Shown one piece after another: positions 17,253 to 54,014 of a stretch of DNA of 55,897 nt. The position numbers and the translations under genes were made by a program. The stretch is from JBDREC01 sp043820105 [NCBI: Pseudomonadota bacterium] (GTDB lineage Bacteria > Bdellovibrionota_F > JAHFAK01): NCBI GenBank assembly GCA_043820105.1, contig JBDREC010000081.1, positions 1 through 55,897 of the forward strand. The letters run 5' to 3'. Every line of letters begins with the position of its first letter. Position 1 is the stretch's first letter. The notes below the pieces were generated by a model. That model was not told where the DNA came from. It saw only the letters and a list, made by a program, of their open reading frames with translations, and made no database searches.

Positions 17253-17366
17253 ATAGCTTGTAGCTTGTAGGGCAAATAAATTAATTATTAATTGTTAATT
17301 ATTAATTATTAATTATTCTAAAAAACGCCTTTCATCTTGTTCCCTTGCGCTCTTGTTCTCCTCTGA
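17253..17366 (+). repeat. Heptamer array with word change, plus octamers
   Basis: ATAGCTT, GTAGCTT, GTAGGGC, AAATAAA, TTAATTA, TTAATTG, then TTAATTA three times and TTCTAAA: ten units in one register (17253-17322) although the word changes halfway. A CTTGTTCC/CTTGCGCT/CTTGTTCT octamer run follows at about 17334-17360. Confidence 0.85.
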
Positions 17367-17367
17367 T

Positions 17368-18612
17368 TTATATCAAACTATCAGCCACCAAACTAGATAA
17401 AAATTCAACTTTTATATCTAACTTATAATAATCATTTAAATCTTTAAGCTGGCCATGACAATTTTCACAAGCTGTAGCTAAGATATCTGGATTTGTTGCT
17501 TTGATTTGTTCTGCTTTTACTTTGGCATTTTTGGCTCTGTATTCTTTTGGGTGGATTGCCATAGCTCCGCCTCCACCTCCACAACACCAGTTGTGTTTTT
17601 TGTTTGGTGTGAGTTCTTCAAAATTGTCTGTTAAGTGGGAAATGATTTCGCGGGCCTCATCGTAGATTCCGCCATTTCTGGCCATTTGACATGGGTCGTG
17701 ATAAGAAAACTTTCCTTGGTGTTTGTTTTTGTCAAGCTTGATTTTGCCATCTTTTAAGTACAGTGACATTACTTCCACAAAACTTGTTACTTTGAATGGT
17801 TGTTTACCCATCATGTATTTCATTACTCTAAAAGCTGTGCCGCATTCACAGATTGTCACTTCTTTTACATTCAAACGTTTTGCTTCATTAATTATTCTCT
17901 CAGCGATTTCTTTTGTCTTTTGTGGATTTCCAACAAAAGCGCCAAAATTTACAGCTTCAAAATAACTTAAACTCCATTTTTCTTTGGCTGCATTCATAAT
18001 GGCAGCTGCTGGAATGATTGAATGTTTGCCAGCTAAGGCTACATATAAAATATTGGCATCTTGAACTCCCATTGGAATAGCTTCTTTGCCTGCTTCAGAT
18101 TTCCACTTTTCAATTACTTCAGTTTCTAAATTTTTTATTCCTTTTTCAAAATTAGCTTTTGTATTATCATCCATTTTACCTTTTGCAATGGACATATCAG
18201 CAAGCATTGATAGGACTTGTGGTTCTTTGCCTGATCCTATTAACAAAAGTTTGGCAATAGACATTATCATTTGGGTGTCAATTCCAAAGGGGCAGTTAAC
18301 CATGCATCTTCTACAGCCAGTGCAAGAATAGGCTGCTTCATAAAGTTGTTCCATATCCATATCATCAAGTTTTAATGCTTCATTTATTGATGGCCAGGCT
18401 TTGCCTCTTACCTTGTAAAGATAAGTGTAAAGTTTTCTTATAAATTCATGTCTATAAACAGCTGAGTTTTTAATGTCTTTTCTTGAGGCATATACGTGAC
18501 ACGCATCAATGCAATTTCCGCATCTTGCGCAAGTTTCAAGATACATTTTCATCACAATATTTAATTTTGAATCAAATAACTTTTTAAGTTCTATTTTCTT
18601 GTTTGCATCCAT
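17368..18612 (-). CDS. DsrK/HdrD-like iron-sulfur protein with CCG domains
   Basis: The N-terminus holds two 4Fe-4S motifs, CARCGNCIDACH and CTGCRRCMVNCP. The C-terminus has cysteine-rich CCG-type domains: ICECGTAF with HDPCQMAR, and WCCGGGGG with CENCHGQ, as in DsrK, TmcB and HdrD. These bind the unusual cubane that handles disulfides or sulfane sulfur. At 414 residues it lies in the range of the family. Its ATG overlaps the stop of the membrane subunit (TAATG), so the two are one unit resembling DsrMK. With TusA and DsrE2-like genes upstream, it probably oxidises or reduces protein-bound sulfur and exchanges electrons with quinone. The true dsrAB genes are not in the window. Confidence 0.82.
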   Translation of the reverse strand: MDANKKIELKKLFDSKLNIVMKMYLETCARCGNCIDACHVYASRKDIKNSAVYRHEFIRKLYTYLYKVRGKAWPSINEALKLDDMDMEQLYEAAYSCTGCRRCMVNCPFGIDTQMIMSIAKLLLIGSGKEPQVLSMLADMSIAKGKMDDNTKANFEKGIKNLETEVIEKWKSEAGKEAIPMGVQDANILYVALAGKHSIIPAAAIMNAAKEKWSLSYFEAVNFGAFVGNPQKTKEIAERIINEAKRLNVKEVTICECGTAFRVMKYMMGKQPFKVTSFVEVMSLYLKDGKIKLDKNKHQGKFSYHDPCQMARNGGIYDEAREIISHLTDNFEELTPNKKHNWCCGGGGGAMAIHPKEYRAKNAKVKAEQIKATNPDILATACENCHGQLKDLNDYYKLDIKVEFLSSLVADSLI

Positions 18613-19331
18613 TATAATCCCCTTCTTATTCTGTTAAGAGGCATTGCAAGGAAGGTGTGCATAAATTTACTAAATGGAAAAAGTATAATAAATAAATTTG
18701 CAGTAAAGATATGCAAAACCAGCATAATATAATGTGGTGAATCTTTTATCATGTCAGGAACCATTGGTTTAAAAGTTATTAGACTATATAGGTATTCTCT
18801 GTACTCACTTACTCCAATATCAAGCCCTGATTCTGACCAGATATTTGCCCAATCGAGATGACCACCCAAAATAGAAGAAAATATTAAAAGTAATAGCATT
18901 AAATAATCTGAAGAATATGAAATCTCTCTAATGGGGCTTTTCAATCTTCTATAAAAAAAGTAAGAAGCTGAAACCACAATTGCTATTCCAATAAATCCTT
19001 TTCCTAAAAACACTTCATGGGGAATTAATTGCAGTAGCTTTATTTCTTTTATTAATTCTAAATGACCTAAGATTAAAGCAATAAAAGCAACATGAAACAC
19101 CATTAAAAAAAACCAAAAAATTGGATTTTTCATGATTATTGTAGGAAATAAAAAGGTGTCTTTTAGTGCATGTAGCATTGCAGGTCTTTGCTTTGGGAAT
19201 ATTTCAAGAGTGTGTAATTGTTTGGGAGAAGCCCAAATTCTTATTATTTGGTAAATTATCCCTGTAAAAAAAATAGCAAAAGCTAAATACACCATCGGGA
19301 TCATGGTGAAATAGTATAACTTATCTATCAT
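18612..19331 (-). CDS. DsrM/NarI-like membrane cytochrome b subunit
   Basis: Five or six hydrophobic helices. His pairs at FHVAFIALILGH and MLVLHIFTANLFI, with a late KFMH, fit the heme b ligands of NarI-type quinone-reacting subunits. SD AAAGGA lies 6 nt before the ATG. At 239 residues it matches DsrM/HmeC short forms. It should carry electrons between the quinone pool and the iron-sulfur subunit encoded next. The DsrJOP partners of the full sulfite-reduction complex are absent, so this is the minimal MK pair. Confidence 0.8.
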   Translation of the reverse strand: MIDKLYYFTMIPMVYLAFAIFFTGIIYQIIRIWASPKQLHTLEIFPKQRPAMLHALKDTFLFPTIIMKNPIFWFFLMVFHVAFIALILGHLELIKEIKLLQLIPHEVFLGKGFIGIAIVVSASYFFYRRLKSPIREISYSSDYLMLLLLIFSSILGGHLDWANIWSESGLDIGVSEYREYLYSLITFKPMVPDMIKDSPHYIMLVLHIFTANLFIILFPFSKFMHTFLAMPLNRIRRGL

Positions 19332-19349
19332 TTCGTAATCCTTTAAAAA

Positions 19350-19468
19350 TTGAGAATCGAAAATTGACAGTTGTTTATTGAAAATTAAATGTCGTTAAAA
19401 TAATCAATAATCAATAAATAACAATTAATAATTAATTGACGGATGCTAGCAACTTGCAACCAGCAACT
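19350..19468 (+). repeat. Inverted heptamer arrays with word change
   Basis: The left arm at 19350-19388 (TGAGAAT, CGAAAAT, TGACAGT, TGTTTAT, TGAAAAT) is roughly inverted to the right arm. From 19399 ten units run in one register to 19468: AATAATC, AATAATC, AATAAAT, AACAATT, AATAATT, AATTGAC, GGATGCT, AGCAACT, TGCAACC, AGCAACT. The end reaches the tusA stop. Confidence 0.9.
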
Positions 19469-19709
19469 AAACAGCTCTTCTAACCCAAAACCTAATCTCG
19501 CCATCTGCCTGCTCTGTTTTTAATATTTCATGGCCAGTGGTTGATGCCCAAGCTGGGAAGTCTGATAATGCTCCTGGATCTGTTGTTATTGCTTCAATTA
19601 CTTGACCGATTTCAACAGTTCCAATTTCTTGGCCTATTTTTACTATTGGCATAGGGCAGGGAAGACCCTTTAGATCTAATGTTTTATCTGCTTTAATTTC
19701 TTCTGACAT
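19467..19709 (-). CDS. tusA: TusA-family sulfurtransferase
   Basis: A small cytoplasmic sulfur carrier. The signature LDLKGLPCPMPIVK holds the CPxP motif, whose first Cys carries persulfide sulfur. The rest (EAITTDPGALSDFPAW, HEILKTEQADGEIRFWVRR) is the standard two-layer fold, 80 residues in all. AAGGAG lies before the ATG. It stands between a DsrE2-like gene and the DsrMK-like pair, an arrangement that fits sulfur handed from DsrE2 to TusA to a redox enzyme. Confidence 0.92.
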   Translation of the reverse strand: MSEEIKADKTLDLKGLPCPMPIVKIGQEIGTVEIGQVIEAITTDPGALSDFPAWASTTGHEILKTEQADGEIRFWVRRAV

Positions 19710-19725
19710 TTTATTTCTCCTTCTT

Positions 19726-19842
19726 ATTGAGAATTGAAAATTGATTATTGCTTATTGAAAATTAACGGTTTGAATAATTAATAATCAATAAATAACAATT
19801 AATAATTAATTCAAAATCCAAAATCCAAAATTCAAAATTCAT
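19726..19842 (+). repeat. Inverted heptamer arrays with word change
   Basis: The left arm at 19726-19764 contains GAAAATT, GATTATT and similar units. From 19773 ten units keep register to 19842: AATAATT, AATAATC, AATAAAT, AACAATT, AATAATT, AATTCAA, AATCCAA, AATCCAA, AATTCAA, AATTCAT. Confidence 0.9.
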
Positions 19843-19860
19843 AATTTACAACTAGTCCGG

Positions 19861-20400
19861 CTATACAAACAATTGCACCTTGCTCTTCTGCGCCTCAGCT
19901 AAAAAAGTAGCTACTCCACAATACTTCAAATTTGGATAATCTATCATTTCTTCTCTTTTGAATCCCATTAAGTCCATTGACATTTCGCAAATGTTTATTT
20001 GTACGTCAAGTTGTGCTGCGAGATCTAAAAGTTGTTCGACTGATTGAACATTTTTCTTTTTCATTAAACCTTTGAGCATTGCTGTTCCAGCTCCGGCCAT
20101 ATTCATTTTAGAAAGCTTGGCTTGGCTGCTACCTTTTGGAAGCATAAATCCAAACATTTTTGACATGAAGTCCTTGCCTTTTACTGTTTTCTTTTTATCT
20201 CTTAGAGAAGCTGTAGCCCAAAAGGTATAAAATAAAACTACTTTCATTCCCATCGCAGCAGATCCAGTTGCAATAATAAGACTTGCCAGGAGTTTGTCTA
20301 GATCTCCTGAAAACACAACCATTGAAACTTGATTTTCTTGACCAGGCTTTAGCTTATTTAACTGATTTTGCATTTCATTTACTTGTTTTTCTAAATCCAT
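19861..20400 (-). CDS. DsrE2-like sulfur-transfer protein (DsrE/F/DrsH family)
   Basis: The ATG at 20400 is preceded by AAAGGG; the frame opens 6 codons earlier with TTG. A coiled N-terminus (EKQVNEMQNQLNKL) leads to VSMVVFSGDLDKLLASLIIATGSAAMGMKVVLFYTFW, the Rossmann-like start of DsrE-type proteins. The conserved Cys lies in INICEMSMDLMGFK, and GVATFLAEA closes the domain. In sulfur bacteria DsrE2 proteins pass sulfane sulfur to TusA, and tusA is the next gene here. Length is 179 residues. Confidence 0.85.
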   Translation of the reverse strand: MDLEKQVNEMQNQLNKLKPGQENQVSMVVFSGDLDKLLASLIIATGSAAMGMKVVLFYTFWATASLRDKKKTVKGKDFMSKMFGFMLPKGSSQAKLSKMNMAGAGTAMLKGLMKKKNVQSVEQLLDLAAQLDVQINICEMSMDLMGFKREEMIDYPNLKYCGVATFLAEAQKSKVQLFV

Positions 20401-20528
20401 TTTATTTAGCCCTTTCAATATATAAGTATCTATATATATATATAGACATAGGCATTGTGAAGATAAAAATCAAGGAAAAAATGTAGGATTTTTAATTTTA
20501 TGGATCAGTTAATTATTTTATAATAAAG

Positions 20529-21020
20529 TTACTTGGCAAAAGCTGACTTTATTTTGGATTTGATATTTGAAAAAAAGGCTTTCCAGTTTTGTGTAAAAAA
20601 AGCCATGATTCCACCTAATATTCCTGCTGTGCCTCCACCAATTACGCAAGCTGGTTGGCCGCAATGTGGACAAACTGCAAACATTAATAAAAAACCAGTT
20701 AAGGCTATCCACCAGGCGATGAATCTAAAAAAGAATTTGTAGAAAAAACCAACATTGGAAGATTTCAATATTTCTTTGGCTTTTGAGGATTTTAATAGTT
20801 TCTTAAAATCTGAATAAGTAATTTTTTTAAGTTCTTTATTGATTTCAAAGTCAAAACTTTCATTGTTATCAAGTTTTATGTTAATTTGAAGCTTATTTTG
20901 CTTTATTTCATCAATATTAATAATGGATTTATCATTTAATTGGAATGACTTCTTAATCCATGCTTTTAATACTTCTGACCCTGAGTCAAGCTTGTGCTTG
21001 TGATTATGTACGATAAGCAC
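20529..21020 (-). CDS. Unknown membrane protein with a CPHCGQPAC motif
   Basis: Starts at a GTG behind AAGGGG. The N-terminal 100 residues are soluble and lysine-rich. A hydrophobic segment (FFFRFIAWWIALTGFLLMFAV) follows, then CPHCGQPAC, a Gly-rich second helix (GGGTAGILGGIMAFF) and a basic tail. Three Cys and one His in a short loop could bind a metal or form a redox disulfide. I recognise no family. It lies between the DsrE2-like and four-helix-bundle genes, transcribed the same way, and could belong to the same sigma-54 transcript. Confidence 0.6.
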   Translation of the reverse strand: MLIVHNHKHKLDSGSEVLKAWIKKSFQLNDKSIINIDEIKQNKLQINIKLDNNESFDFEINKELKKITYSDFKKLLKSSKAKEILKSSNVGFFYKFFFRFIAWWIALTGFLLMFAVCPHCGQPACVIGGGTAGILGGIMAFFTQNWKAFFSNIKSKIKSAFAK

Positions 21021-21040
21021 TTTTTCCCCTTACAATCATT

Positions 21041-21149
21041 GAAAATTGAAAATTGATTGTTGATTATTGAAAATTAATAAACTCTAAATTGATAATAATC
21101 AATATTTAATTAATAATTACCCTACAAGCTACTAGCTACCAGCTTGTCC
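21041..21149 (+). repeat. Inverted heptamer arrays with word change
   Basis: Left: GAAAATT, GAAAATT, GATTGTT, GATTATT, GAAAATT, AATAAAC (21041-21082). Right, in one register from 21094: AATAATC, AATATTT, AATTAAT, AATTACC, CTACAAG, CTACTAG, CTACCAG, CTTGTCC. Confidence 0.88.
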
Positions 21150-21160
21150 GAGCAAGAACC

Positions 21161-21496
21161 TTATTTTAATTTGCTAATCAAAAAAACGATTTGGTCGAAG
21201 ATTCTTTGGAAGTGTGTTTTTTTCTTAAAAGAGATTTGTTTTTTGGAATATAAGTTTTCTAATAAATCACAACACCTACTAGCAGACTTTTTTGATTTCT
21301 CAAAATGTATTTTTCTTTTTTCTTCTATTTCAGATTCAGCACCATAAGCTAAATTAATAGTCAGTTCCATGGTCTCGTTATTGAGCTTTGCCTTAAGGCT
21401 TGCATAATCTTCTTCGATCATTTTGAGATCAGATAAGAGTTGTCCAATCACATCAACTGACCGCTTATAACAATCAAACTCTTCATAAAATTTCAT
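21161..21496 (-). CDS. Small helical protein, four-helix-bundle (IVS-protein-like)
   Basis: AGGAG precedes the ATG. The 111 residues are almost entirely amphipathic helix: YEEFDCYKRSVDVIGQLLSDL, a long acidic second helix, a helix with the pair SRCCDLLENLYSK, and a basic tail. The pattern recalls the S23/IVS four-helix-bundle family, but the match is weak and I would not assign a role. A strong sigma-54 promoter lies 72 bp upstream, so it may be the first gene of a regulated operon. Confidence 0.5.
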   Translation of the reverse strand: MKFYEEFDCYKRSVDVIGQLLSDLKMIEEDYASLKAKLNNETMELTINLAYGAESEIEEKRKIHFEKSKKSASRCCDLLENLYSKKQISFKKKTHFQRIFDQIVFLISKLK

Positions 21497-21567
21497 TTCT
21501 CTAATCTCCTATTTGAAGAAAATCTTTTTTTTAACTTTTGGCTTTTTGCCTTATAAAATATAGATTT

Positions 21568-21584
21568 TGCAATAAGTGTGCCAA
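21568..21584 (-). promoter_or_regulatory. Sigma-54 promoter (-24/-12), minus strand
   Basis: On the minus strand TTGGCACACTTATTGCA: TGGCAC, five bases, TTGCA, with GG and GC 12 nt apart, a near-consensus match. Transcription would start near 21557 and run into 21496-21161 and perhaps on into the sulfur-relay genes. A GTTTCA half-site lies at its upstream edge. Confidence 0.75.
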
Positions 21585-21723: not shown

Positions 21724-21814
21724 AAGGGAACAAGGGAACAAGAGCGCAAGGGAACAAGGGAATGGGAAAAATATTATTATTTCTTGTTCTCATGTTCTCT
21801 TGTTCTTTTGTTCT
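21724..21814 (+). repeat. Inverted octamer arrays (AAGGGAAC / CTTGTTCT)
   Basis: The left arm has five octamers (AAGGGAAC twice, AAGAGCGC, AAGGGAAC, AAGGGAAT; 21724-21763). The right arm has four (CTTGTTCT, CATGTTCT, CTTGTTCT, TTTGTTCT; 21783-21814). The arms are inverted and end 17 nt before the symporter start. Confidence 0.88.
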
Positions 21815-21830
21815 CTAATTAGGAGAGAAA

Positions 21831-23075
21831 ATGGGAAAACTAAAACTTCATTGGCAGGTTGTAATTGCCATGGCAATTGGGATAATTGCTGGTCTTATTT
21901 TGCAGCATATTTATAATGGTGAACCAGAGGGAAGTGCGTTTGCTTTAATTTCATCTCTTGGTACTATCTTTATAAGACTTTTAAAAATGGTCATTGTTCC
22001 TCTTATTTTTACATCAATTGTTAGTGGAGTTTCAGGAATTTCTGAGGGTAAAAAGTTGGGTCGGGTTGGCATTAAGACCTTAATATATTATGTTACAACA
22101 AGTTTTTTTGCGGTCATGATAGGTCTTTTATTAACAAATTTTATTAAGCCAGGTGTTGGAGTTTCTTTTGAAAATGCCAAAAACTTTGATCCAAGTAATT
22201 TAAATACTCCAGGTTCTCCTCTTGAAATAATAATTAGAATGATTCCACTTAATCCTTTTGAAGCAGCAGCAACAGGAGATATGCTTGGAATAATTTTTTT
22301 TGCTATCTTTCTTGGTTTTGTAATTAATAAGTTAAATCCTGAACACCGTGATTTTTTGAGGAAATTATTCCAGGCTTTTTTTGAAGCTATGATGAAGATA
22401 ACTTCAGTTGTTATATTGCTTTTGCCAATAGGAGTATTTGGACTTATTACAAAAGCTGTAGCTACCTCTGGTTTTGGAGTCTTTACAGCTGTTGGCAAAT
22501 ATATGCTTACAATAGCCTCAGGTCTTACGATTCATGTATTTATTACTATTCCAATAATATTTTATCTTATTACCAGAATAAATCCTTTAAAACATTTTAA
22601 AGCAGTAAGCGAAGCAATGATAACTGCTTTTTCAACATCTTCTTCTAATGCTACTTTGCCTGTTACGATTAGGTGCGTTGAGGAAAAAGCAAAAGTTTCA
22701 AATGAAATAACAAGTTTTGTGATACCAATGGGTGCAACTGTTAACATGGATGGAACAGCTCTTTATGAATGTGCTGGTGTAATTTTCATTGCTCAAGTCC
22801 TTGGAATTGATTTAAGCCTTACTCAGCAGTTTGTGATAGTATTAACAGCCCTTTTAGCTTCAATTGGAGCAGCAGGAATTCCAAGTGCTGGCTTAGTTAT
22901 GATTTTTATAGTTACTCAGGCTGTTGGCTTTAATGATACTGACGTTGCTATGATAATTGGAACAATGCTAGCAGTTGATAGACCTCTTGATATGTTTAGG
23001 ACCGTTGTTAATGTTACAAGTGATAGTTTTGGCGCGGCTATTATTGCAAAAACTGAAGGGGAAGAGCTTTATTGA
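21831..23075 (+). CDS. Dicarboxylate/amino acid:cation symporter (DAACS, SLC1 type)
   Basis: An inner-membrane secondary transporter for glutamate, aspartate or C4-dicarboxylates. The two re-entrant loop signatures are present: TSSSNATLPVTIRC (HP1) and GIPSAGLVMI (HP2). MGATVNMDGTALYE corresponds to the NMDGT cation and substrate site of TM7, and NVTSDSFGAAIIAKTEGE forms TM8 and the tail. At 414 residues with eight helices it is complete. In the SLC1 family an Arg after the TM8 Asp marks acidic amino acid carriers; here no such Arg is evident, so the substrate is open. AGGAG precedes the ATG. Confidence 0.92.
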   Translation: MGKLKLHWQVVIAMAIGIIAGLILQHIYNGEPEGSAFALISSLGTIFIRLLKMVIVPLIFTSIVSGVSGISEGKKLGRVGIKTLIYYVTTSFFAVMIGLLLTNFIKPGVGVSFENAKNFDPSNLNTPGSPLEIIIRMIPLNPFEAAATGDMLGIIFFAIFLGFVINKLNPEHRDFLRKLFQAFFEAMMKITSVVILLLPIGVFGLITKAVATSGFGVFTAVGKYMLTIASGLTIHVFITIPIIFYLITRINPLKHFKAVSEAMITAFSTSSSNATLPVTIRCVEEKAKVSNEITSFVIPMGATVNMDGTALYECAGVIFIAQVLGIDLSLTQQFVIVLTALLASIGAAGIPSAGLVMIFIVTQAVGFNDTDVAMIIGTMLAVDRPLDMFRTVVNVTSDSFGAAIIAKTEGEELY

Positions 23076-23082
23076 AGGGGCA

Positions 23083-23106
23083 AGTGGTAAGTGGTAAGGG
23101 GTAAGT
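23083..23106 (+). repeat. Heptamer array AGTGGTA x3
   Basis: AGTGGTA, AGTGGTA, AGGGGTA, 8 bp after the symporter stop. It is inverted to the array at 23350-23405, and the sigma-54 promoter lies between the two. Confidence 0.85.
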
Positions 23107-23349: not shown

Positions 23350-23405
23350 TTCGTAAGTTGTAAGTAAGCACTTACCACTTACCACTTACCCCTTACCACT
23401 TAAAA
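23350..23405 (+). repeat. Heptamer array (CTTACCA) in the desulfoferrodoxin leader
   Basis: Eight units in register: TTCGTAA, GTTGTAA, GTAAGCA, CTTACCA, CTTACCA, CTTACCC, CTTACCA, CTTAAAA. It is inverted to the array at 23083. Confidence 0.9.
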
Positions 23406-23791: not shown

Positions 23792-23797
23792 GAATAA

Positions 23798-23849
23798 GTA
23801 TTCAGTATTCAGTATTTGGTATTCATTATACACCCTGAATACTGAATAC
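23798..23849 (+). repeat. Inverted heptamer arrays GTATTCA / TGAATAC
   Basis: Four units on the left (GTATTCA, GTATTCA, GTATTTG, GTATTCA; 23798-23825) and two inverted units on the right (TGAATAC twice; 23836-23849), between desulfoferrodoxin and rubrerythrin. Confidence 0.88.
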
Positions 23850-27193: not shown

Positions 27194-27263
27194 GCTATCA
27201 GTTTCCTGCTATCAGCTATCAGCAAACAAAGCTGAAAGCTGAAGGCTAAAAGCTGACAGCTTA
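27194..27263 (+). repeat. Heptamer array, ten units with word change
   Basis: GCTATCA, GTTTCCT, GCTATCA, GCTATCA, GCAAACA, AAGCTGA, AAGCTGA, AGGCTAA, AAGCTGA, CAGCTTA: exactly ten units in one register while the word changes from GCTATCA to AAGCTGA. Confidence 0.9.
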
Positions 27264-27743: not shown

Positions 27744-27800
27744 TTACCCCCCCTTTCAAAGTAAGATATAGTAAATTATGAACCTGATTTATTGTTTTAC

Positions 27801-27828
27801 AGAATACTGAATACCAAATACTAAATAC
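27801..27828 (+). repeat. Heptamer array TGAATAC
   Basis: AGAATAC, TGAATAC, CAAATAC, TAAATAC in register, just past the ferritin stop (27833). Confidence 0.8.
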
Positions 27829-27832
27829 AAAA

Positions 27833-28339
27833 TTATAAATTTTGGGGTTCATTGAATACTCTTTGTCCAAGATCTTTATCTAAAACAAACACAGCTTCAC
27901 CTTTATCCCCAAAAAGTCTGAGCTTATCAATAATTTCATTTGCTGATTCTTCTTCTTCAACCTGTTCATCAATAAACCACTTTAAAAAGGATTCTGTAGC
28001 AAAATCATTTTCATCTCTTGAAAGCCTAGCGAGGTCATTTATTCTTTTTGTTACATATTGCTCATGTTCTAAAGTGTGTTGAAAAGCATTTAGTGGTGAT
28101 GACCATTCTATCTGTGGTGTTTCAATAGCTTCAAGTCTAACTCTTCCGCCTCTTGCTCCAATATAATTGAAAAATTTATCCCCATGAAATTTTTCCTCAG
28201 CTGCTTGAGCTTTCATCCATTTTGCAAAACCTTTAAGGCCAATTGAATCAAAATATGCTGACATTGATAGATATAAATAAGATGAAAAATATTCTTTATT
28301 TATTTGCTCATTAAGGGCTTTTTCCATTTTATCATTCAT
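27833..28339 (-). CDS. ftnA: Ferritin (bacterial, non-heme)
   Basis: Stores iron in a 24-subunit shell and detoxifies ferrous iron. The ferroxidase site residues lie in EQINKEYFSSYLYL, AAEEKFHGDKFFNYI and FIDEQVEEEESANEI. At 168 residues it matches FtnA, and no heme-ligand Met is obvious as in bacterioferritin. AAAGGA precedes the ATG. A sigma-54 promoter with palindromic activator sites lies upstream, an unusual control for ferritin. Confidence 0.95.
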   Translation of the reverse strand: MNDKMEKALNEQINKEYFSSYLYLSMSAYFDSIGLKGFAKWMKAQAAEEKFHGDKFFNYIGARGGRVRLEAIETPQIEWSSPLNAFQHTLEHEQYVTKRINDLARLSRDENDFATESFLKWFIDEQVEEEESANEIIDKLRLFGDKGEAVFVLDKDLGQRVFNEPQNL

Positions 28340-28584: not shown

Positions 28585-28640
28585 AATAATCAATAATCAA
28601 CAATCAATTTTCAATAATTAATAGTTAATAATCATTAGTT
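28585..28640 (+). repeat. Heptamer array, eight units
   Basis: AATAATC, AATAATC, AACAATC, AATTTTC, AATAATT, AATAGTT, AATAATC, ATTAGTT in register. It overlaps the 3' end of the ferritin-like gene that stops at 28635. Confidence 0.88.
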
Positions 28641-38669: not shown

Positions 38670-39728
38670 ATGAAAAACCGCAAACCAACAAAAGAAATCA
38701 CTCTCGGAAATATTAAAATTGGTGGAAATAATCCAATTGCCATTCAATCAATGACAAATACAAAAACCTCAGACTTAAAAAGCACCTTAAACCAAATCAA
38801 GAAACTTATAAAAGCTGGAGTTGAAATAATACGAGTATCTGTGCCTGATAAGGACTCACTTGCTTCATTAAAGGCCATTAAGGCAAACATAGATATCCCT
38901 TTAATTGCTGATATTCATTTTAAGCATGAGCTAGCCATTGAAGCTTTAAAAAATGGCGCTGATTGTGTTCGAATTAATCCCGGCAATATTGGGGGAATTG
39001 ATAAGTTCAAGGAAGTCATAAGGGTAGCTAAAGAATATAATAAGGCTATCAGAATTGGTGTAAATTCAGGTTCTTTGGAAAAAGAATTATTGGAAAAATA
39101 TAAAAAACCATGTGCTCAGGCTATTTCAGAATCAGCCCAGGGCTATGTCAAATTTTGTGAAGAATTAGAGTTTTATAATTTTAAGGTTTCTTTGAAGTCT
39201 TCTGATCCTATTGAAACTATTGAGGCTTGTGAAAGATTTTCGCTGGCTTGTGAATATCCACAACACATTGGGATTACTGAAGCTGGTCCCTTATTTTCAG
39301 GTTCTATTAGGTCATCAATTGGCTTAGGTATTTTATTGAATATGGGTATAGGTGATACCTTAAGAGTTTCATTGTCAGCTGATCCTGTATATGAAGTAAA
39401 AGCAGCATATGAAATCCTAAAAGCTTTAAAGCTTAGAGATTATGGTGCAACAATCATTTCTTGTCCAACATGTGCAAGATGTAACATTGACATTGAAAAA
39501 ATATCTAAAGAAGTTGAGGAAAAACTGTTTTATCATAAAAAGCCAATTAAAGTAGCAATAATGGGTTGCATTGTAAATGGACCAGGTGAAGCCAAAGAAG
39601 CTGACATAGGTATTGCCGGAGGAATTGGGGAGGGGCTTTTATTTAAAAATGGTAAAGTTGTTAAGAAAGTTTGTGAAGACAAGCTTGTGGAAACTTTAAT
39701 AAAGGAAATAAATAAAAATGAAGATTAG
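38670..39728 (+). CDS. ispG: 4-hydroxy-3-methylbut-2-enyl diphosphate synthase (IspG/GcpE)
   Basis: Seventh-step enzyme of the non-mevalonate isoprenoid pathway. The ATG at 38670 fits the family start (KPTKEITLGNIKIGG). NPIAIQSMTNTKT and LIADIHFKHELA form the TIM-barrel half. SCPTCARC with the later Glu of IMGCIVNGPGEA supplies the iron-sulfur site. At 352 residues it is the short bacterial form without the plant-type insertion. Dxr and UppS of the same pathway are encoded at 44-47 kb. Its TAG stop is the first triplet of a TGGTTGC heptamer array. Confidence 0.93.
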   Translation: MKNRKPTKEITLGNIKIGGNNPIAIQSMTNTKTSDLKSTLNQIKKLIKAGVEIIRVSVPDKDSLASLKAIKANIDIPLIADIHFKHELAIEALKNGADCVRINPGNIGGIDKFKEVIRVAKEYNKAIRIGVNSGSLEKELLEKYKKPCAQAISESAQGYVKFCEELEFYNFKVSLKSSDPIETIEACERFSLACEYPQHIGITEAGPLFSGSIRSSIGLGILLNMGIGDTLRVSLSADPVYEVKAAYEILKALKLRDYGATIISCPTCARCNIDIEKISKEVEEKLFYHKKPIKVAIMGCIVNGPGEAKEADIGIAGGIGEGLLFKNGKVVKKVCEDKLVETLIKEINKNED

Positions 39729-39760
39729 TTGCTGGTTGCTGGTTGCTGGTTGCTGGTAAG
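39726..39760 (+). repeat. Heptamer array TGGTTGC
   Basis: TAGTTGC, TGGTTGC three times, TGGTAAG. It begins exactly at the ispG stop codon. Confidence 0.88.
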
Positions 39761-41063: not shown

Positions 41064-41105
41064 AATAATCAATAATCAATAATCAATAATTAATAATTAA
41101 TGAAT
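41064..41105 (+). repeat. Heptamer array AATAATC
   Basis: AATAATC three times, AATAATT twice, AATGAAT, preceded by GAAAAT hexamers from about 41049. Confidence 0.88.
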
Positions 41106-49284: not shown

Positions 49285-50142
49285 TTATTCTTCGTTTTTT
49301 TCGTCAGTAGATTGATTAAGGGGATCTGTTTGTTCTTCTATAACTTTTTTATCTTCAGCTTTTCTTTTTGCAACAATTTGAGGTTCTTTTTCATGAGATT
49401 CTTCAACTTTCTTTTTCTTTTCTGGTCTGGCTTGCTTTTGTCCCCTTATTTTCTTTTCAAAAACCTTAGAGCCATCATTACAAGCTTCAGTAATTTTACT
49501 GATAAATAACCTAATTGACCTTATTGCATCGTCATTTCCAGGTACAATAAAATCAATAACATCAGGATCACAGTTAGTATCAGTTAATGCGATAACAGGA
49601 ATACTTAGTTTTCTAGCTTCAGCGATTGCAATTTTTTCTTTATTTGGATCAACAATAATAATAGCTCCTGGAAGTGCTTTCATGTCTTCAATACCTGAAA
49701 GAACTCTTTTAAGTTTATCAACTTCTCTGTTCATTTTTAGAACTTCTTTTTTCTTTAGTCTATCAGCTACACCATCAGCTAATTGTTTTTCCATAGTTTG
49801 CATTCTGTTGATTGAATTGCGAATAGTAGAAAAATTTGTAAGCATTCCACCAAGCCATCTGTGTGTAACAAAATTCATATTACATTTTGCAACTTCTTCC
49901 TGGATTGTTTCGCTAAATTGTTTTTTGGTTCCAACAAATAATACTTTGTTTCCTGAAGAAACTGTATCAACTACAAAATCAAGAGCATTTCTAAATAGTT
50001 TTGCTGATTTTCTCAAGTCAAGAATATGAATTCCATTTCTAGATCCAAAAATATAAGGTTTCATTTTTGGATTCCATCTCTGTGTGATATGGCCAAAATG
50101 TGTACCAGCTTCTAGCATCTCTCTAATTGTAACGTTCGCCAT
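49285..50142 (-). CDS. rpsB: 30S ribosomal protein S2 (uS2)
   Basis: ETLEAGTHFGH-type start (EMLEAGTHFGHITQRWNPKM), LFVGTKKQ, HRWLGGMLTNF and PGAIIIVDPNKEKIAI, then PVIALTDTNCDPD and IDFIVPGNDDAIRSI. The last 55 residues (RGQKQARPEKKKKVEES onward) are a charged low-complexity tail beyond the usual end. AGGAG lies before the ATG. First gene of the rpsB-tsf-pyrH-frr-uppS-cdsA-dxr run. Confidence 0.95.
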   Translation of the reverse strand: MANVTIREMLEAGTHFGHITQRWNPKMKPYIFGSRNGIHILDLRKSAKLFRNALDFVVDTVSSGNKVLFVGTKKQFSETIQEEVAKCNMNFVTHRWLGGMLTNFSTIRNSINRMQTMEKQLADGVADRLKKKEVLKMNREVDKLKRVLSGIEDMKALPGAIIIVDPNKEKIAIAEARKLSIPVIALTDTNCDPDVIDFIVPGNDDAIRSIRLFISKITEACNDGSKVFEKKIRGQKQARPEKKKKVEESHEKEPQIVAKRKAEDKKVIEEQTDPLNQSTDEKNEE

Positions 50143-50243
50143 CTAAAATTCTCCTAAAATAGTTACTTAAATCTTTTATTTTATTTTCTCTAAAAGTCGT
50201 TTTAATAAATATAAAACCCAATAATTTTAAATTCTTAAAAACA

Positions 50244-50278
50244 TTTTGAATTTTGAATTTTGAATTTTCAATTATTTA
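50244..50278 (+). repeat. Heptamer array TTTTGAA
   Basis: TTTTGAA three times, TTTTCAA, TTATTTA in register, upstream of rpsB. Confidence 0.85.
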
Positions 50279-50321
50279 GACGTGCCTTTTAGCTTATAAT
50301 ATAATAGAATGTCAAGATTTT

Positions 50322-50939
50322 TTAAACTTCAATTTCCCTGTTTATATAGTCATCTCTATAGGCAAGAGGCTTATTTAGTATTTCTGAAATTACTATGCCA
50401 TAAGCTAATTCATTCTTTATTGAGGGAAAGGGTGTATTGTTTTTATTTTTAGATGCTTTCTTTTTTAGAGGTTCTTTCTGTAACTCTATATTATGAAAAG
50501 GCTTTAAGGGTTCTCTAAACTCATCATCATTTTCTGGATTATTATTGAGATTTGCTTCCATATCAAGCTTTTGTTCTTTTATTACTGTTTCGTAATTATC
50601 AAATTCCTCTTCATCTTCTTTTGGAAGAAACATTTCTAAAACCTTTTTTTCAAAAGCAGTCTTTGGGTAATCAGGTTTTTCTTCAAAAATATGTTTTTTG
50701 TGAGTATCTTTTATGGCTTCTTCTTGATCTTGATAATAGGGGGCTTGATCTTCATTGTTATCTGCTTCATAGTCGTATTCGCTTTCATCTTCTTTGGTTG
50801 AAGCTGCATCTTGAGTTTGCCTATCCTGATTTCCCTTATAAGGATCACGTTTTGCTCGTTTTAGTAATTCTTTAACAAAACCACCAAAAACAACTATGAG
50901 TATAATCAATATGCTTAATATGTCGTCAAATTTATCCAT
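50322..50939 (-). CDS. Membrane-anchored acidic protein with a SEILNKP tail
   Basis: One N-terminal helix (ILSILIILIVVFGGFVKELL) is followed by a long acidic low-complexity region (about 35-140) and a conserved-looking end, LAYGIVISEILNKPLAYRDD. Similar A-x-V-x-SEIL-x-x-P-x-A-x-R tails occur in uncharacterised proteins of several phyla. It stands 66 bp downstream of the flotillin-like gene and is transcribed the same way, which suggests a partner in membrane organisation. SD is weak. Confidence 0.6.
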   Translation of the reverse strand: MDKFDDILSILIILIVVFGGFVKELLKRAKRDPYKGNQDRQTQDAASTKEDESEYDYEADNNEDQAPYYQDQEEAIKDTHKKHIFEEKPDYPKTAFEKKVLEMFLPKEDEEEFDNYETVIKEQKLDMEANLNNNPENDDEFREPLKPFHNIELQKEPLKKKASKNKNNTPFPSIKNELAYGIVISEILNKPLAYRDDYINREIEV

Positions 50940-50972
50940 TTATTAATAGTTAACCTTTTTGATTAGTGTTTA

Positions 50973-51000
50973 ATTAAAAAATTAAAAAATTAAAAAATTA
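50973..51000 (+). repeat. Octamer array ATTAAAAA x3
   Basis: ATTAAAAA three times and ATTA, ending at the floA stop region. Confidence 0.75.
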
Positions 51001-51004
51001 CTAT

Positions 51005-52000
51005 TTAATCATTCCCAGAATCTTCCTTCTTATCTGTTGATTGTGAAATTGATTGCCTCATATTTGTGTCTGCTTGAACATTTTTAAATTTTAAATAGTC
51101 CATAATTCCAAGGTTTCCTGATCTGAATGCTTCAGCCATTGCCAGTGGCACCTGGGCTTCTGCTTCAACTACCTTTGATTTCATCTCAATGACTCTTGCT
51201 TTCATTTCTTGTTCTTGAGCAATCGCCATAGCTCTTCTTCCTTCTGCCTTTGCTTGCGCTATTTTTTTATCAGCTTCTGCTTGAGCTGTTTGTAGTTGTG
51301 CTCCAACATTTTGTCCTACATCAACATCTGCTATATCAATTGATAGAATTTCAAAGGCTGTCCCTGCATCAAGTCCTTTTGCTAATACATTTTTCGAAAT
51401 TGAATCTGGATTTTCAAGTACTGCTTTATAGTCTATTGCTGAGCCTATAGTAGTAACAATACCTTCACCGACTCTGGCTACAACAGTATCTTCTCCAGCC
51501 CCTCCTACGAGTCTTTCAATATTTGCTCTAACTGTAACTTTTGCCAATGCTTTTAGCTGAATTCCATCTTTAGCTACAGCTGCAATTATTGGAGTGTGTA
51601 TAACTTTTGGATTAACTGACATTTTAACAGCTTCCAGCACATCTCTTCCTGCTAGATCAATGGCTGCTGCTCTATCAAATTTTAAATCTATATTTGCTTT
51701 ATCAGCGGAAATTAAAGCCATTATAACCCTTGGGACATGCCCACCTGCCAAATAATGTGCCTCTAGTTTTTCAATGGGAATATCTAGGCCTGCTTTAACT
51801 GCATTTATTCTTGGTTCAACAATTATTTTTGGTGGAATTTTTCGAAGTCTCATTCCAATTAAAGAAATAAGCTTAACATTGGCTCCTGATGCCCAAGCAG
51901 CTATCCAAAGCTGAACAGGAATTATCCAGGTAAAGGTGATTAAAAAGAAAAAGAAACCAACTAAAATTGCTCCTACCAGGAAGCCTGAGCTTACGACCAT
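51005..52000 (-). CDS. floA: Flotillin-like protein FloA
   Basis: Scaffold of functional membrane microdomains. AAGGAGTT precedes the ATG at 52000; the frame runs 33 codons further, but that part is a heptamer array. A membrane segment ([23 protein letters not shown]) is followed by [19 protein letters not shown] and the SPFH-like body, then an EA-rich coiled coil ([23 protein letters not shown]). 331 residues, as in FloA. Often next to an NfeD gene, which is not present here. Confidence 0.93.
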
Positions 52001-52018
52001 TGTGAACTCCTTTTTATA

Positions 52019-52078
52019 AGTGGTAAGTGGTATGTGGTAAGTGGTAAGTTTAGGCTTACGACTTACGGCTAATAACTT
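52019..52078 (+). repeat. Heptamer array AGTGGTA then ACTTACG
   Basis: AGTGGTA, AGTGGTA, TGTGGTA, AGTGGTA, AGTTTAG, GCTTACG, ACTTACG, GCTAATA in one register, upstream of the floA start. The second half is inverted in sense to the first. Confidence 0.88.
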
Positions 52079-52152
52079 AATATATTCAAAAGAAATCAAT
52101 ATAGTTGCATTAAATGAAAAGGAAAGAAAAAAATGAAATTAAGTTTTTTCTT

Positions 52153-52743
52153 TTATGGAATATAATGGTAGCCTTTTCCGTATATTTTAATAAGATCACA
52201 GTTTTCACTTTTAATTTTATCATTGAAATCTACAACTATTCCATTGGCATTTCCATCTTGATCACTCATAAAAGCAAAATAAAAAAGATTGCTAATTGCA
52301 TTTGGAGCTAATTTCCTGGATAGGCTACTGGCAATTCTTTGTAATCTTGTGAACTCTTGAGTAAAATAGGGAACTACAAATAAAGAAAAAGAATATAGAT
52401 CTCCTAGGTCTTTTAATAAGAGTTTGATTAGGCTTTGGTAACATGGAAAAGGATTTATATCTGTATTGAATAGATCACCATTTGGATCAAGAGATTCTGC
52501 ATTTAAATAATATTCAGTTAAATTGCTTAATTTTAGATTTTCATATTCTTTGCCATTAAAACGAATTGTTTCTATTTTTAAATTTTTAGGAATTGATGCT
52601 TTCCATACTTCTTCAGTCAATAAGTCAGCAAGCTCATTTCCTTCATTTGTTACCATGTCACATAGAATTGCAGACTGTGGAAATATATTGGATATTGTTA
52701 GAATAAGGAAAATACAAATCATATAATTGTTCAAATATTTCAT
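52153..52743 (-). CDS. Exported protein of unknown function
   Basis: A signal peptide (MICIFLILTISNIFPQ) and about 175 residues with no family I recognise. GLN-type helices (EFTRLQRIASSLSRKLAP) precede a tail with FAFMSDQDGNANGIVVDFND, a possible calcium loop (DQDGNANG). Two or three Cys are spaced widely. Its size and export resemble the protein at 43.7 kb, but the sequences are not clearly related. Transcribed away from pta. Confidence 0.55.
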   Translation of the reverse strand: MKYLNNYMICIFLILTISNIFPQSAILCDMVTNEGNELADLLTEEVWKASIPKNLKIETIRFNGKEYENLKLSNLTEYYLNAESLDPNGDLFNTDINPFPCYQSLIKLLLKDLGDLYSFSLFVVPYFTQEFTRLQRIASSLSRKLAPNAISNLFYFAFMSDQDGNANGIVVDFNDKIKSENCDLIKIYGKGYHYIP

Positions 52744-52891
52744 AATAATTATCCCTAAAAAAAAATTTTCTCCTTTATATCATACAATAACGCCCGGTGT
52801 CAAATGAAATCTGGGTGAAAACATTTGACTTTTTAGCATTAATCTGAAATTCAAGCCCACATTAAGTGCTAGTGGTAAATTATAAGTAATA

Positions 52892-52926
52892 CTTAACACT
52901 TACCGCTTACCACTTACCACTTATTT
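52892..52926 (+). repeat. Heptamer array CTTACCA
   Basis: CTTAACA, CTTACCG, CTTACCA, CTTACCA, CTTATTT in register, just upstream of the pta SD. Confidence 0.88.
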
Positions 52927-52942
52927 TACTGGAGGTTACCAA

Positions 52943-53938
52943 ATGGACATTATCTCAAAATTTAAAGCATTAGCTAAATCAAATAAAAAAAGAATCGTCC
53001 TTCCCGAAGGTTGTGAACCAAGGACAGTCGAAGCTGCTTCTATTATTACAAAAGAAGGGCTTGCTGAAGTTGTGTTACTTGGAAAAAGGGAATATGTTGA
53101 GAAAACAGCAGCTGATCATAATATTAATATTTCAGATATTACTGTCATTGATCCTGAAACTTCTGAAAAGCTCAATGAATATGCAAATACCTTTTATGAA
53201 TTAAGAAAACATAAGGGTGTTTCAGAAAATGATGCTATTAAGACCTGTAAGGATGAAATTTATTTTGCAACCATGATGGTGCATGCAGGTGATGCTGATG
53301 GCTTTGTTTCTGGTGCTGAACATTCAACTGGTGATACAATTAGACCACCTTTACAAATTATTAAGACGAAGCCTGGCATTAATTCTATTTCCTCATCCTT
53401 TGTAATGATTGTTCCAGATTGTGACTTAGGTGATGATGGCATGTTCATTTTTGCAGATTGTGCAGTTAATCCAAATCCAACAGCTGAACAGCTTGGTGAA
53501 ATCGCTGTGGCTTCTGCTGAAACAGCTCGTGTACTATGTCAAATGGATCCAAGGGTTGCCATGCTTTCATTTTCAACAAAAGGTTCAGCTAAACATGAAT
53601 TAGCTGATAAAGTTATTAAGGCAACAGAAGTGGCTTTAAGCATTAATCCTGAACTTAAAATTGATGGCGAGTTTCAAGCTGACGCAGCTATCATTCATTC
53701 TATTGGAGTTAAAAAGGCTCCAGGAAGTAAAATCGCTGGTCAAGCAAATGTCTTAGTTTTCCCAGACCTTCAATCAGGAAATATCGCATATAAATTAGTT
53801 CAAAGACTTGCAAAAGCAGAAGCTGTTGGCCCAATATTACAAGGCTTGAATAAACCAGTTAATGATTTATCAAGAGGTTGTTCAGTTGAAGATATAGTTA
53901 ATGTCACGGCAATTACTGCAGTTCAGGCACAGGGATAA
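52943..53938 (+). CDS. pta: Phosphate acetyltransferase
   Basis: Interconverts acetyl-CoA and acetyl phosphate. KRIVLPEGCEPRTVEAA opens the PTA/PTB fold. DGFVSGAEHSTGDTIRP binds substrate, and GDDGMFIFADCAVNPNPTAEQLGEIA and GEFQADAAI are signature segments. At 331 residues it is the single-domain form without the N-terminal regulatory part. GGAGG precedes the ATG. ackA follows after 94 bp. Confidence 0.95.
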   Translation: MDIISKFKALAKSNKKRIVLPEGCEPRTVEAASIITKEGLAEVVLLGKREYVEKTAADHNINISDITVIDPETSEKLNEYANTFYELRKHKGVSENDAIKTCKDEIYFATMMVHAGDADGFVSGAEHSTGDTIRPPLQIIKTKPGINSISSSFVMIVPDCDLGDDGMFIFADCAVNPNPTAEQLGEIAVASAETARVLCQMDPRVAMLSFSTKGSAKHELADKVIKATEVALSINPELKIDGEFQADAAIIHSIGVKKAPGSKIAGQANVLVFPDLQSGNIAYKLVQRLAKAEAVGPILQGLNKPVNDLSRGCSVEDIVNVTAITAVQAQG

Positions 53939-53944
53939 GGGACA

Positions 53945-54014
53945 AGTGGTAAGTGGTAAGTGGTAAGTGGTAAGTGGTAAGTGGTAAGAATATTCTTACC
54001 AGCAACTAGCAACT
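53945..54014 (+). repeat. Heptamer array, ten units: AGTGGTA x6 then AGCAACT
   Basis: AGTGGTA six times, AGAATAT, TCTTACC, AGCAACT, AGCAACT: exactly ten units in one register between pta and ackA, with a small TAAGAATATTCTTA palindrome at the word change. Confidence 0.92.

Follow-up and report, generated by a model that had tools for sequence, protein, structure and literature searches.

Intergenic arrays of 7-nt tandem repeats in a 56-kb bacterial contig: period, outward polarity and a probable origin by local slippage and mutation

The window analysed here, i.e. the whole stretch of 55,897 nt of contig JBDREC010000081.1 (assembly GCA_043820105.1, JBDREC01 sp043820105), includes moeA, tusA, a gltP-like gene, ispG, floA, pta and ackA. 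Its 57 ORFs, picked from 74, set 47 gaps with a total of 8,531 nt, and short tandem arrays of 7-nt units lie in many of these gaps. The arrays, some of which form inverted pairs, are as follows (strand given as + or -, or as none assigned).

4987-5017, +: AAGTGGT array giving moeA its stop codon
8246-8277, +: TTGANNN array that follows a stop and serves as the G-type arm of a long hairpin
8307-8345, -: AATAATC-type array before a start, complementary to the 8246 array; C-type arm of the same hairpin
12293-12401, none: ATTAATT and AATAATT arrays, inverted pair (hairpin)
13797-13828, -: (CTTACCA)n array in a divergent gap, 9 nt ahead of a start codon
15055-15084, +: TACAGNN array with drifting words
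15563-15586, -: (CTTACCA)n array at the start of ORF 15585-16172
17254-17317, none: TAGCTTG array, then ATTAATT array; junction without register
19399-19436, -: AATAATC array (TTGANNN family), tusA lying upstream
19726-19846, none: ATTGAAA and AATAATC inverted pair continuing into AATTCAA; the sole one of five blocks treated below to keep AAT at the word change (3 of 7)
21038-21070, +: ATTGAAA array with a gene start 17 nt away
23075-23105, +: AAGTGGT array on the gltP-like gene's stop
23369-23402, -: CTTACCA array before the following start; inverted partner of the 23075 array
23797-23849, none: AGTATTC and CTGAATA inverted pair (hairpin)
27208-27261, none: GCTATCA and AAAGCTG inverted pair, the single C-first inverted pair of the window
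27798-27841, -: TACNNAA array overlapping a stop
28585-28630, -: AATAATC array adjoining a stop (28635)
39728-39757, +: (GTTGCTG)n array immediately at the stop of ispG
41064-41101, -: AATAATC / AATAATT array
50243-50273, +: ATTTTGA array, an exception to the outward rule described below
52017-52049, +: AAGTGGT array upstream of floA, whose start was re-set in the present analysis
52876-52923, -: CTTACCA array ahead of the pta start
53931-53988, +: AGTGGTA array running from the stop of pta into the gap between pta and ackA

The identity between positions 7 nt apart in the 47 gaps was 0.359, whereas Markov shuffles gave 0.304 (z 9.0). Echoes of the period were present at lag 14 (z 5.6) and lag 21 (z 5.7), and the neighbouring lags 6 and 8 gave z values of 4.1 and -0.3, respectively. 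The scoring of 10,371 nt of extended gaps gave 31 period-7 segments (1,024 nt) versus 2.1 in shuffles, and 0 to 7 segments for each of the other periods from 4 to 13. In the coding sequence of the window, lag-7 identity was 0.275 and only eight period-7 segments were found in 45,114 nt; therefore, the arrays are mostly intergenic. Several word families occur within this one 56-kb window, and the units drift strongly inside arrays. The initial annotation, which described short period-7 arrays with many different words, was right in this respect; its figure of more than 20 gaps was slightly high, since a tighter threshold gave 23 arrays across 18 gaps. Meanwhile, heptamers were dominant in samples of Petroclostridium, one Aminicenantes-phylum genome and Prevotellaceae, and no such dominance was found in samples of several other groups. 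In 501 kb of the complete chromosome of Petroclostridium sp. X23 there were 24 period-7 arrays versus 0 to 4 at the other periods from 3 to 13, with 14 at period 14; in 420 kb of genome G155 the corresponding numbers were 6, 0 to 1, and 4. Period 7 thus stands far above the other periods both in the window and elsewhere. Over the sequence scanned, the initial annotation therefore withstands the refuting condition it had set itself, a period 7 no stronger than the rest. The word AAGTGGT was also seen on five viral contigs.

The arrays tend to sit at gene edges. As had been noted before for moeA, ispG and others, they lie in or against stop codons: an array begins inside a stop or within 3 nt of it at 6 of 29 edges in the window (1.7 expected), at 10 of 38 in Petroclostridium (2.1 expected) and at 18 of 38 in Bacteroidota (11.1 expected). 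Read outward from gene edges, G exceeds C in the window, in Petroclostridium and in one Aminicenantes-phylum genome; this polarity was not seen in the Prevotellaceae sample. In the window, C exceeds G on the gene strand in 10 of the 11 arrays nearest a start, and the orientation of words is fixed, AAGTGGT being outward in 7 of 7 cases and TTGANNN in 8 of 9. Simple slippage does not account for this outward polarity. The provision of stops in all three frames (7 being 1 modulo 3) was considered as a selected function and rejected, with no consistent excess over shuffles: words with a stop on at least one strand numbered 22 of 23 in the window (19.8 in shuffles), 33 of 35 in Prevotellaceae (29.1) and 20 of 28 in Petroclostridium (22.1).

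Where two arrays face each other in one gap, long stems can result, and that at 8246-8343 has 32-nt arms and an inverted-repeat score of 29.5, where none of 20 shuffles exceeded 13. An inverted repeat that scored higher than each of its 20 shuffles was found in 7 of 19 array gaps and 5 of 24 array-free gaps of the window, in 2 of 12 and 3 of 36 in Prevotellaceae, in 6 of 18 and 10 of 33 in a second Bacteroidota set, in 6 of 11 and 14 of 46 in Petroclostridium (most of the six having arms outside arrays), and in 1 of 2 and 0 of 7 in L116. The hairpin was accordingly rejected as the general unit, being present in only part of the array gaps. Heptad hairpins were G-first versus C-first in 5:0 cases in the window, 8:1 in Petroclostridium, 1:2 in Bacteroidota and 3:1 in all others. 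Part of this asymmetry is general, because other hairpins are mildly G-first too (111:67, groups summed and ties dropped). Same-gap inverted pairs gave G-first to C-first ratios of 6:1 in the window, 10:2 in Petroclostridium, 7:1 in Bacteroidota and 3:0 in L116 (one gap); binomial values for arm order are too optimistic, because word families rather than arrays are the independent units.

The initial annotation had further claimed that an unbroken 7-nt register runs across unrelated words in five 70-nt blocks. We sliced these blocks into sevens and read the identity of adjacent units at the word change. The units agree at 1 and 2 of 7 positions in block 17253, at 3, 2 and 3 around the change in block 19399, at 1 in block 27194 (with 3 and 3 around its odd second unit), at 2, 0 and 2 around the change in block 53945, and at 3 in block 19773 through the common AAT. 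The register is therefore lost (0 to 2 of 7) at four of the five blocks. In the array flanks, in-phase identity equals background, as do the six other phases; because a segment is by definition closed at a mismatch, the value for the first flank unit is lowered. Of 885 distances between 6-mer copies outside one array in the window, 156 were divisible by 7 (17.6%, where chance gives 14.3%), and 151 had residue 2. The counts for Petroclostridium were 807 out of 5,175 and those for Bacteroidota 224 out of 1,750, so that such distances are mildly over-represented in the window and not at all in Bacteroidota. The junctions, the flanks and these distances do not support a register over unrelated words, the window excess of 156 in 885 speaking to the contrary.

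Similarity decays with distance inside arrays. For units 1 to 6 apart, identity was.867,.817,.789,.772,.649 and.567 in the window,.870,.842,.802,.746,.695 and.647 in Bacteroidota, and.850,.831,.776,.699,.600 and.625 in Petroclostridium, in each case measured on arrays from a caller that favours similar neighbours. A simulation of unit duplication or loss with substitution gave.874,.809,.764,.730,.696 and.666, at a fitted ratio of 0.08 that was judged by eye to be the best of seven tried. In simulated arrays of at least six units (n = 173), the first and last units agreed at no more than 4 of 7 positions in 47%. Thus, contrary to what had been proposed, the observed decay can be reproduced by duplication and loss of 7-nt units plus substitution.

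In protein comparisons, AckA of the window reached at most 71% identity, to Ca. Aminicenantes, Pta at most 67% over full length among 119 genomes of one class, and IspG at most 55% among 31, 149 and 5 genomes. By these identities no close relative was found for comparing orthologous gaps with the window, and the following differences come from Prevotellaceae. In gap A, L033 is longer than L032 and L034 by 14 nt, i.e. two units. In gap B, a single gap picked after the alignments had been seen, the array is absent in L032 and L034, and L033, L035 and L040 have three different words, each of which, read by eye, prolongs its gene's own TAA context. Apart from the 14 nt of gap A, spacer lengths mostly differ by numbers that 7 does not divide, with word and length altered together.

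Several explanations compete for these observations. Identical words recur between gaps in 15 of 248 pairs in the window (2.8 in letter shuffles), 22 of 371 in Petroclostridium (2.5) and 32 of 585 in Prevotellaceae (3.2), the last being raised by orthologous sites. Between genomes, identical words were found in 1 of 805 pairs for window and Prevotellaceae (1.2 in shuffles), 8 of 644 for window and Petroclostridium (2.8) and 0 of 980 for Prevotellaceae and Petroclostridium (1.4); words at most one mismatch apart made up 60 of 644 (38.2) and 124 of 980 (47.4) in the latter two comparisons, with no excess in the first (25 of 805 against 33.8). Such recurrence above independent seeding, also of near-identical words between some genomes, asks for dispersal, convergence or selection. 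A dispersed, oriented family, in which recombination or a mobile process spreads a few genome-specific words among the gaps, often as an inverted pair, is a less likely account: it would fit the recurrence within genomes, the fixed orientation of AAGTGGT and TTGANNN, the same-gap inverted pairs above the 90th percentile of non-cognate pairs (5 of 8 in the window, 10 of 15 in Petroclostridium, 2 of 15 in Bacteroidota), and the L116 gap at 1850-2120 with three copies of a longer unit that contains heptamers. However, inspection by eye showed no shared loop or flank in 12 Petroclostridium stretches, and the words of gap B track the local stop codon. In addition, recurrence need not imply copying, because one-mismatch words are in excess between genomes also. 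Selection for RNA elements, with the hairpins and G-free leaders acting as terminators or as leader or 3'-end structures, appears rather improbable. Long stems such as 8246-8343 and the excess of C over G in arrays nearest starts argue for it, whereas strong inverted repeats also occur in array-free gaps, and at 13797 and 52876, both in divergent gaps, arrays lie just ahead of starts, a position that calls for no terminator.

The first idea of the initial annotation, a protein or RNA bound at 7-nt intervals that fixes the spacing and leaves the sequence free, is very unlikely. The sharp period and the mild window excess of 7-divisible distances are in its favour, but identity past the array ends is at background at every phase, the register is gone at four of the five junctions, and orthologous gaps of Prevotellaceae vary in unit number and word or have no array at all, so the spacing constraint is unsupported. 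At telomeres, the strand running outward is G-richer. The outward G polarity and the head-to-head pairs might therefore be seen as a trace of RNA-templated repeat addition by a telomerase-like reverse transcriptase, and tandem-repeat synthesis has a precedent in DRT10, which makes 9-nt repeats in one system and other lengths elsewhere (PMC12632851). Against this highly improbable route, no RVT_1 match was found in three of four array-rich genomes (G021, G023 and G155, the last a 2.3-Mb contig), matches were found in G020 and G028, whose sampled stretches show no heptamer excess, and the gap B words track local sequence; the RVT_1 distribution thus leaves a reverse transcriptase unsupported as the array maker. 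An assembly artefact, for which no supporting sign was found, has a negligible chance, as the period is equally sharp in the complete Petroclostridium sp. X23 chromosome and an identical array stands at one site in three separate Prevotellaceae records.

The arrays are probably intergenic heptamer simple-sequence repeats produced by local slippage with a 7-nt step together with mutation. In this account sequence is duplicated locally, preferably in steps of 7 nt and most likely through strand slippage during replication, and tandem arrays would so be built and resized out of the sequence already there, the seed in some cases being the stop-codon context of a gene, and point substitutions would afterwards make the units drift. 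Arrays would persist mainly between genes because a 7-nt step disrupts reading frames. In the window genome and some others, arrays at gene edges have the G-richer strand outward, and two that meet in one gap can form hairpins. Slippage as the process, and any cause given for the value of 7 or for the polarity, we infer from sequence comparisons. Slippage alone gives no reason for 7 over 5, 6, 8 or 9, and a sequence-specific function is not required to explain the arrays. Of the earlier interpretation, the copying mechanism with a 7-nt step fits the findings; the insufficiency of slippage, the register over unrelated words and the constraint on spacing do not. The data separate what the words leave unexplained (period, polarity and position) from what the words do explain. 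Orthologous gaps with another word, two extra units or nothing make the birth of arrays observable among sister species, and the question of why 7 becomes testable in laboratory strains.

Long simple sequence repeats of bacteria were reportedly surveyed in 2007 by Mrazek and others. As that survey is reported in passages of PMC4679880 and PMC4692102, heptamers outnumbered every other class of longer repeats in most genomes covered; PMC4692102 also cites heptamers of Calothrix. For this dominance only a proposed reason appears in the part of PMC4679880 concerned, namely slippage with 7 nt as the length in contact with the polymerase. With tandem 7-nt units above chance, mostly intergenic, and preferred word families, the window arrays belong with these LSSR/STRR repeats and have in common with them the 7-nt unit arranged head to tail. 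Unlike them, the window units drift strongly and fall into several word families in 56 kb, and orthologous gaps of Prevotellaceae change word. The TAACTGA direct repeats of Beggiatoaceae are described as intergenic heptamers near starts with other heptamers mixed in, and two Cyanothece strains as differing mostly through 7-nt-step indels (both in excerpts of PMC4679880); Beggiatoaceae favour the one word TAACTGA, which is absent from the array list of the window. In Nostoc, the P6b element of the tRNA-Leu intron is a hairpin stem of 7-nt repeat motifs, two of which interchange, and its length varies by repeats, as excerpted from PMC4476775. Those heptamers sit in the group I intron of one tRNA gene, unlike the window arrays; no tRNA-Leu group I intron was found in the window, where the only tRNA found is tRNA-Asp.

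The closest parallel in layout is offered by the G-quadruplex-forming heptamers GGGAATC of Xanthomonas and GGGGA(C/T)T of Nostoc. As the relevant sections of PMC4692102 describe, upstream repeats of the GGGAATC type are on the non-coding strand, mostly no more than 50 bp from the ORF, downstream ones are on the coding strand, also within 50 bp, some overlap stops, and convergent inverted pairs are common in Xanthomonas (70 and 75 cases). The abundance of heptamers, the polymerase-step idea, mixed words and the outward polarity of quadruplex-forming words are already in print. The outward polarity of heptamers without G runs and the change of word at orthologous gaps were found in no paper among the matches listed in the open-licence literature. 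The window arrays share the heptamer unit and have the G-strand outward from ORF edges within 50 bp; in contrast to the quadruplex heptamers, AAGTGGT and TTGANNN of the window and AGTGAAT of Petroclostridium have no three-G run per unit. Runs of at least three G occur only in two units each at 23075 and 53931 and in one at 23369 (other strand), and in this respect the window arrays differ from quadruplex repeats. Because a three-G run does not recur from unit to unit, the main words should not form the proposed quadruplex; such runs are present in the AGTGGGG arrays of Petroclostridium and in one GGGNATT array of G155. A speculative and rather doubtful extension is that one copying process with a fixed 7-nt step, so far undescribed, is common to bacteria of several phyla; it would start at gene edges from a local seed (often the stop codon) and proceed outward with the G-richer strand leading. 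The Xanthomonas and Nostoc repeats would be one case of it, with the quadruplex as a side effect, and a heptad hairpin would arise wherever two such arrays met head to head. Here the same outward layout as in the quadruplex case is carried by words mostly without its G runs, and its occurrence with quite different words in unrelated bacteria hints at a general 7-letter copying process rather than a special word.

In the gaps of the window, which are bounded by 57 ORFs picked from 74 (47 gaps, 8,531 nt in total), identity at lag 7 is 0.359 vs 0.304 in Markov shuffles (z 9.0; 47 gaps), and this period-7 signal is echoed at lags 14 and 21. No lag-7 excess was found in the coding sequence of the window. 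As scored segments, 31 period-7 arrays (1,024 nt), i.e. head-to-tail runs of 7-nt words, were detected compared with 2.1 in shuffles, and the remaining periods from 4 to 13 gave 0 to 7 segments each. The sequence AAGTGGTAAGTGG by itself occurs 15 times on both strands of the window and was never seen in 100 shuffles. The claim of the initial annotation that 7-nt tandem arrays lie between genes is upheld by the lag-7 identity and the array count. Two gaps with heptamer arrays fall among the consecutive genes for DsrK/TmcB-like, DsrM/TmcC-like, TusA and DsrE2-like proteins at 17368-20418. Other repeats of the window include two period-8 arrays in a single gap at 21724-21816, AAGGGAAC and TCTTGTTC, resembling a diverged inverted pair, and a 24-nt coding repeat (11087-11305, in the ORF at 10781-11728) encoding Asp-Gly pairs, with the frame judged by eye.

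Inside the arrays, unit identity drops with distance in units, along near-equal curves in the window, Bacteroidota and Petroclostridium. A drift model of unit duplication or loss plus point substitution, with one fitted ratio (seven were tried), matches the observed fall, the first point of the decay curve being partly determined by the array caller, which prefers similar neighbours. Under this model, the first and last units match at 4 or fewer of 7 positions in 47% of 173 long arrays. The objection raised to slippage in the initial annotation is thus answered, because duplication or loss with substitution gives the observed drift. Our best reading, which we regard as probable, is that local duplication in 7-nt steps would make the arrays, that substitution would act on their units alongside it, and that the products would be tolerated in intergenic sequence, without need of a sequence-specific function.

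The initial annotation had also proposed one 7-nt register running through unrelated words at five sites of ten units. When each site was divided into 7-nt pieces, neighbouring units at the word changes matched at 1 and 2 of 7 positions (17253), 3, 2 and 3 (19399), 1 (27194) and 2, 0 and 2 (53945); only the site at 19773-19842 shares AAT at its word change (3 of 7) and never falls lower. Past array ends, in-phase identity was about the same as at the six other phases. The proposal is not supported, and on the whole the register belongs to individual arrays. For repeated 6-mers that do not share an array, the distance is divisible by 7 in 156 of 885 cases (window), 807 of 5,175 (Petroclostridium) and 224 of 1,750 (Bacteroidota), where chance is 1 in 7. 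The mild excess in the window counts slightly for a protein or RNA that binds every 7 nt, still an improbable reading, and slightly against duplication in 7-nt steps; old arrays that have since decayed may have left it behind.

Identical words are repeated over the gaps of one genome and little across genomes. Allowing at most one mismatch, words are shared in excess between Petroclostridium and the window (60/644 vs 38.2) and between Petroclostridium and Prevotellaceae (124/980 vs 47.4), with no excess between the window and Prevotellaceae (25/805 vs 33.8). This recurrence is the chief fact beyond the reach of local slippage alone.

Turnover is visible at orthologous gaps of Prevotellaceae, identified through flanking sequence in five sampled loci (L032-L035 and L040). 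In one gap, L033 is longer by exactly 14 nt with the same word, L032 equals L034 in length, L035 holds a short broken piece and L040 a different word. A second gap lacks the array in L032 and L034 and carries CTTTAAC in L033, TTAAGAA then TCACTCT in L035, and GTAAACT in L040; in these three, the initial units extend the TAA context of the own gene's stop. In a third, L033, L034 and L040 have arrays with differing words, and L032 and L035 have other sequence. One more array is identical across L033, L034 and L035 (upstream flank 98.6-99.4% identical), so not every site changes fast. The gap before ackA, which holds an AAGTGGT array in the window, has an array above threshold 8 in 5 of 17 Bacteroidota loci inspected (L034, L035, L040, L043 and L051; at least three words) and none in the other 12; one of these, L032, has sequence there that is related to that of L034 but has diverged from it. 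The remaining spacer differences are mostly not multiples of 7, because words and lengths changed together. The pta-ackA products of the window (52943-55424) are up to 67-71% identical to proteins of Aminicenantes and of the class these belong to, and its IspG is at most 55% identical to anything searched; judged from these identities, the contrast may reflect transfer, or an unplaced lineage.

Arrays touch stop codons more often than under random placing in the window (6/29 vs 1.7 expected), Petroclostridium (10/38 vs 2.1) and Bacteroidota (18/38 vs 11.1), and the moeA stop codon falls within an array. Contact with start edges was not above random (1/29, 1/32 and 11/36, with 1.8, 1.9 and 10.9 expected, respectively). 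With our own gene list, in which the floA start was shifted to 51970 (its family match starts at residue 44), 10 of 11 start-nearest arrays of the window have C above G on the gene strand (none the reverse, 1 tie), and 13 of 19 stop-nearest arrays have G above C (4 the reverse, 2 ties). Both counts agree that G exceeds C going outward from the gene. When genes were called automatically and only edges no more than 30 nt away were counted, the rule holds at 6/7 starts and 13/14 stops in the window and at 4/5 and 15/17 in Petroclostridium; no such rule was found in Bacteroidota (7/16 and 10/18). It weakens without the distance limit (window 7/9 and 14/20; Petroclostridium 10/15 and 20/29). G155, a genome of the same phylum as the Aminicenantes genome G001, follows it at 4/4 starts and 5/5 stops within 100 nt, and at 5/7 and 5/6 at any distance. 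In array-free control gaps, start edges lean the opposite way (G above C in 2/16 in the window and 37/235 in Petroclostridium), and stop edges have G above C in 4/16 and 122/215, so the stop-edge lean of Petroclostridium is partly general. The AAGTGGT family points outward at 7 of 7 edges and the TTGANNN family at 8 of 9, a count that leaves out the array at moeA and those whose seed is equally frequent on either strand; since few word families are independent, support for polarity is weaker than the counts imply.

The complementarity of two arrays in the same gap exceeds the 90th percentile found among non-cognate pairs for 5/8 cases in the window, 10/15 in Petroclostridium and 2/15 in Bacteroidota, which we attribute to the meeting of two outward arrays. 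Inverted repeats above 20 shuffles occur in 7/19 array gaps and 5/24 array-free gaps of the window; hairpins are thus only part of the picture. A strong non-heptad hairpin (arms ATGCTGAA / TTCAGGATGAC) lies between convergent genes at 11729-11865, and the last gap (55425-55690) has a very long inverted repeat, MITE-like or a long hairpin, the entire gap having fold energies of -134 and -157, one per strand.

Among the groups sampled at array threshold 9, period 7 is dominant in Prevotellaceae (18 arrays, with 17 at period 14 and 0-3 at the remaining periods), in other Bacteroidota (28, next to 19 and 17 at periods 8 and 14) and in Petroclostridium sp. X23 (13 in a sample of 101 kb). A 501-kb sample of Petroclostridium, scored at threshold 12, contains 24 period-7 arrays vs 0-4 for other periods from 3 to 13. 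G155, whose phylum we take to be Acidobacteriota, has 6 in 420 kb vs 0-1 for other periods from 3 to 13. Desulfurella, other Firmicutes, Spirochaetes, Caldiserica, Caldithrix and Synergistaceae each gave 0 to 2 period-7 arrays in the loci sampled, without a clear excess. The heptamer trait is patchy and spans more than one phylum. Almost all Petroclostridium arrays come from the sampled stretches near 0.5 Mb and 3.1-5.1 Mb (L101, L104, L130, L132-L134, L136); L047 and L126 have a single array each, and the remaining sampled stretches none at threshold 11. Period-8 arrays, some arranged as inverted pairs, occur in Bacteroidota loci L043 (1422-1525, 3040-3153), L051 (7557-7604), L061 (16333-16403) and L078 (13137-13214), and some lineages may have a repeat step of 8. 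In locus L116 (1850-2120), an array is followed by a longer unit in three copies, which contain short heptamer arrays. The viral contigs L093 (1-118) and L095 (6830-6938) both contain (CCACTTA)n, adjoined in L095 by (TAGTGAG)n, at or near the stretch end, as though assembly had halted at the repeat.

The arrays belong to an already known kind of repeat, because heptamer layout and 7-nt stems have been published. Quadruplex-forming heptamers of Xanthomonas and Nostoc show outward polarity, stop-codon overlap and convergent inverted pairs, with few pairs in Nostoc (PMC4692102), and a Nostoc intron stem is made from two alternative 7-nt motifs (PMC4476775). As far as that account of the quadruplex heptamers goes (PMC4692102), the layout is the same, whereas the words of the window are mostly without G runs. 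The present analysis adds this known layout built from such words, together with the quantified drift and the change of words at orthologous gaps.
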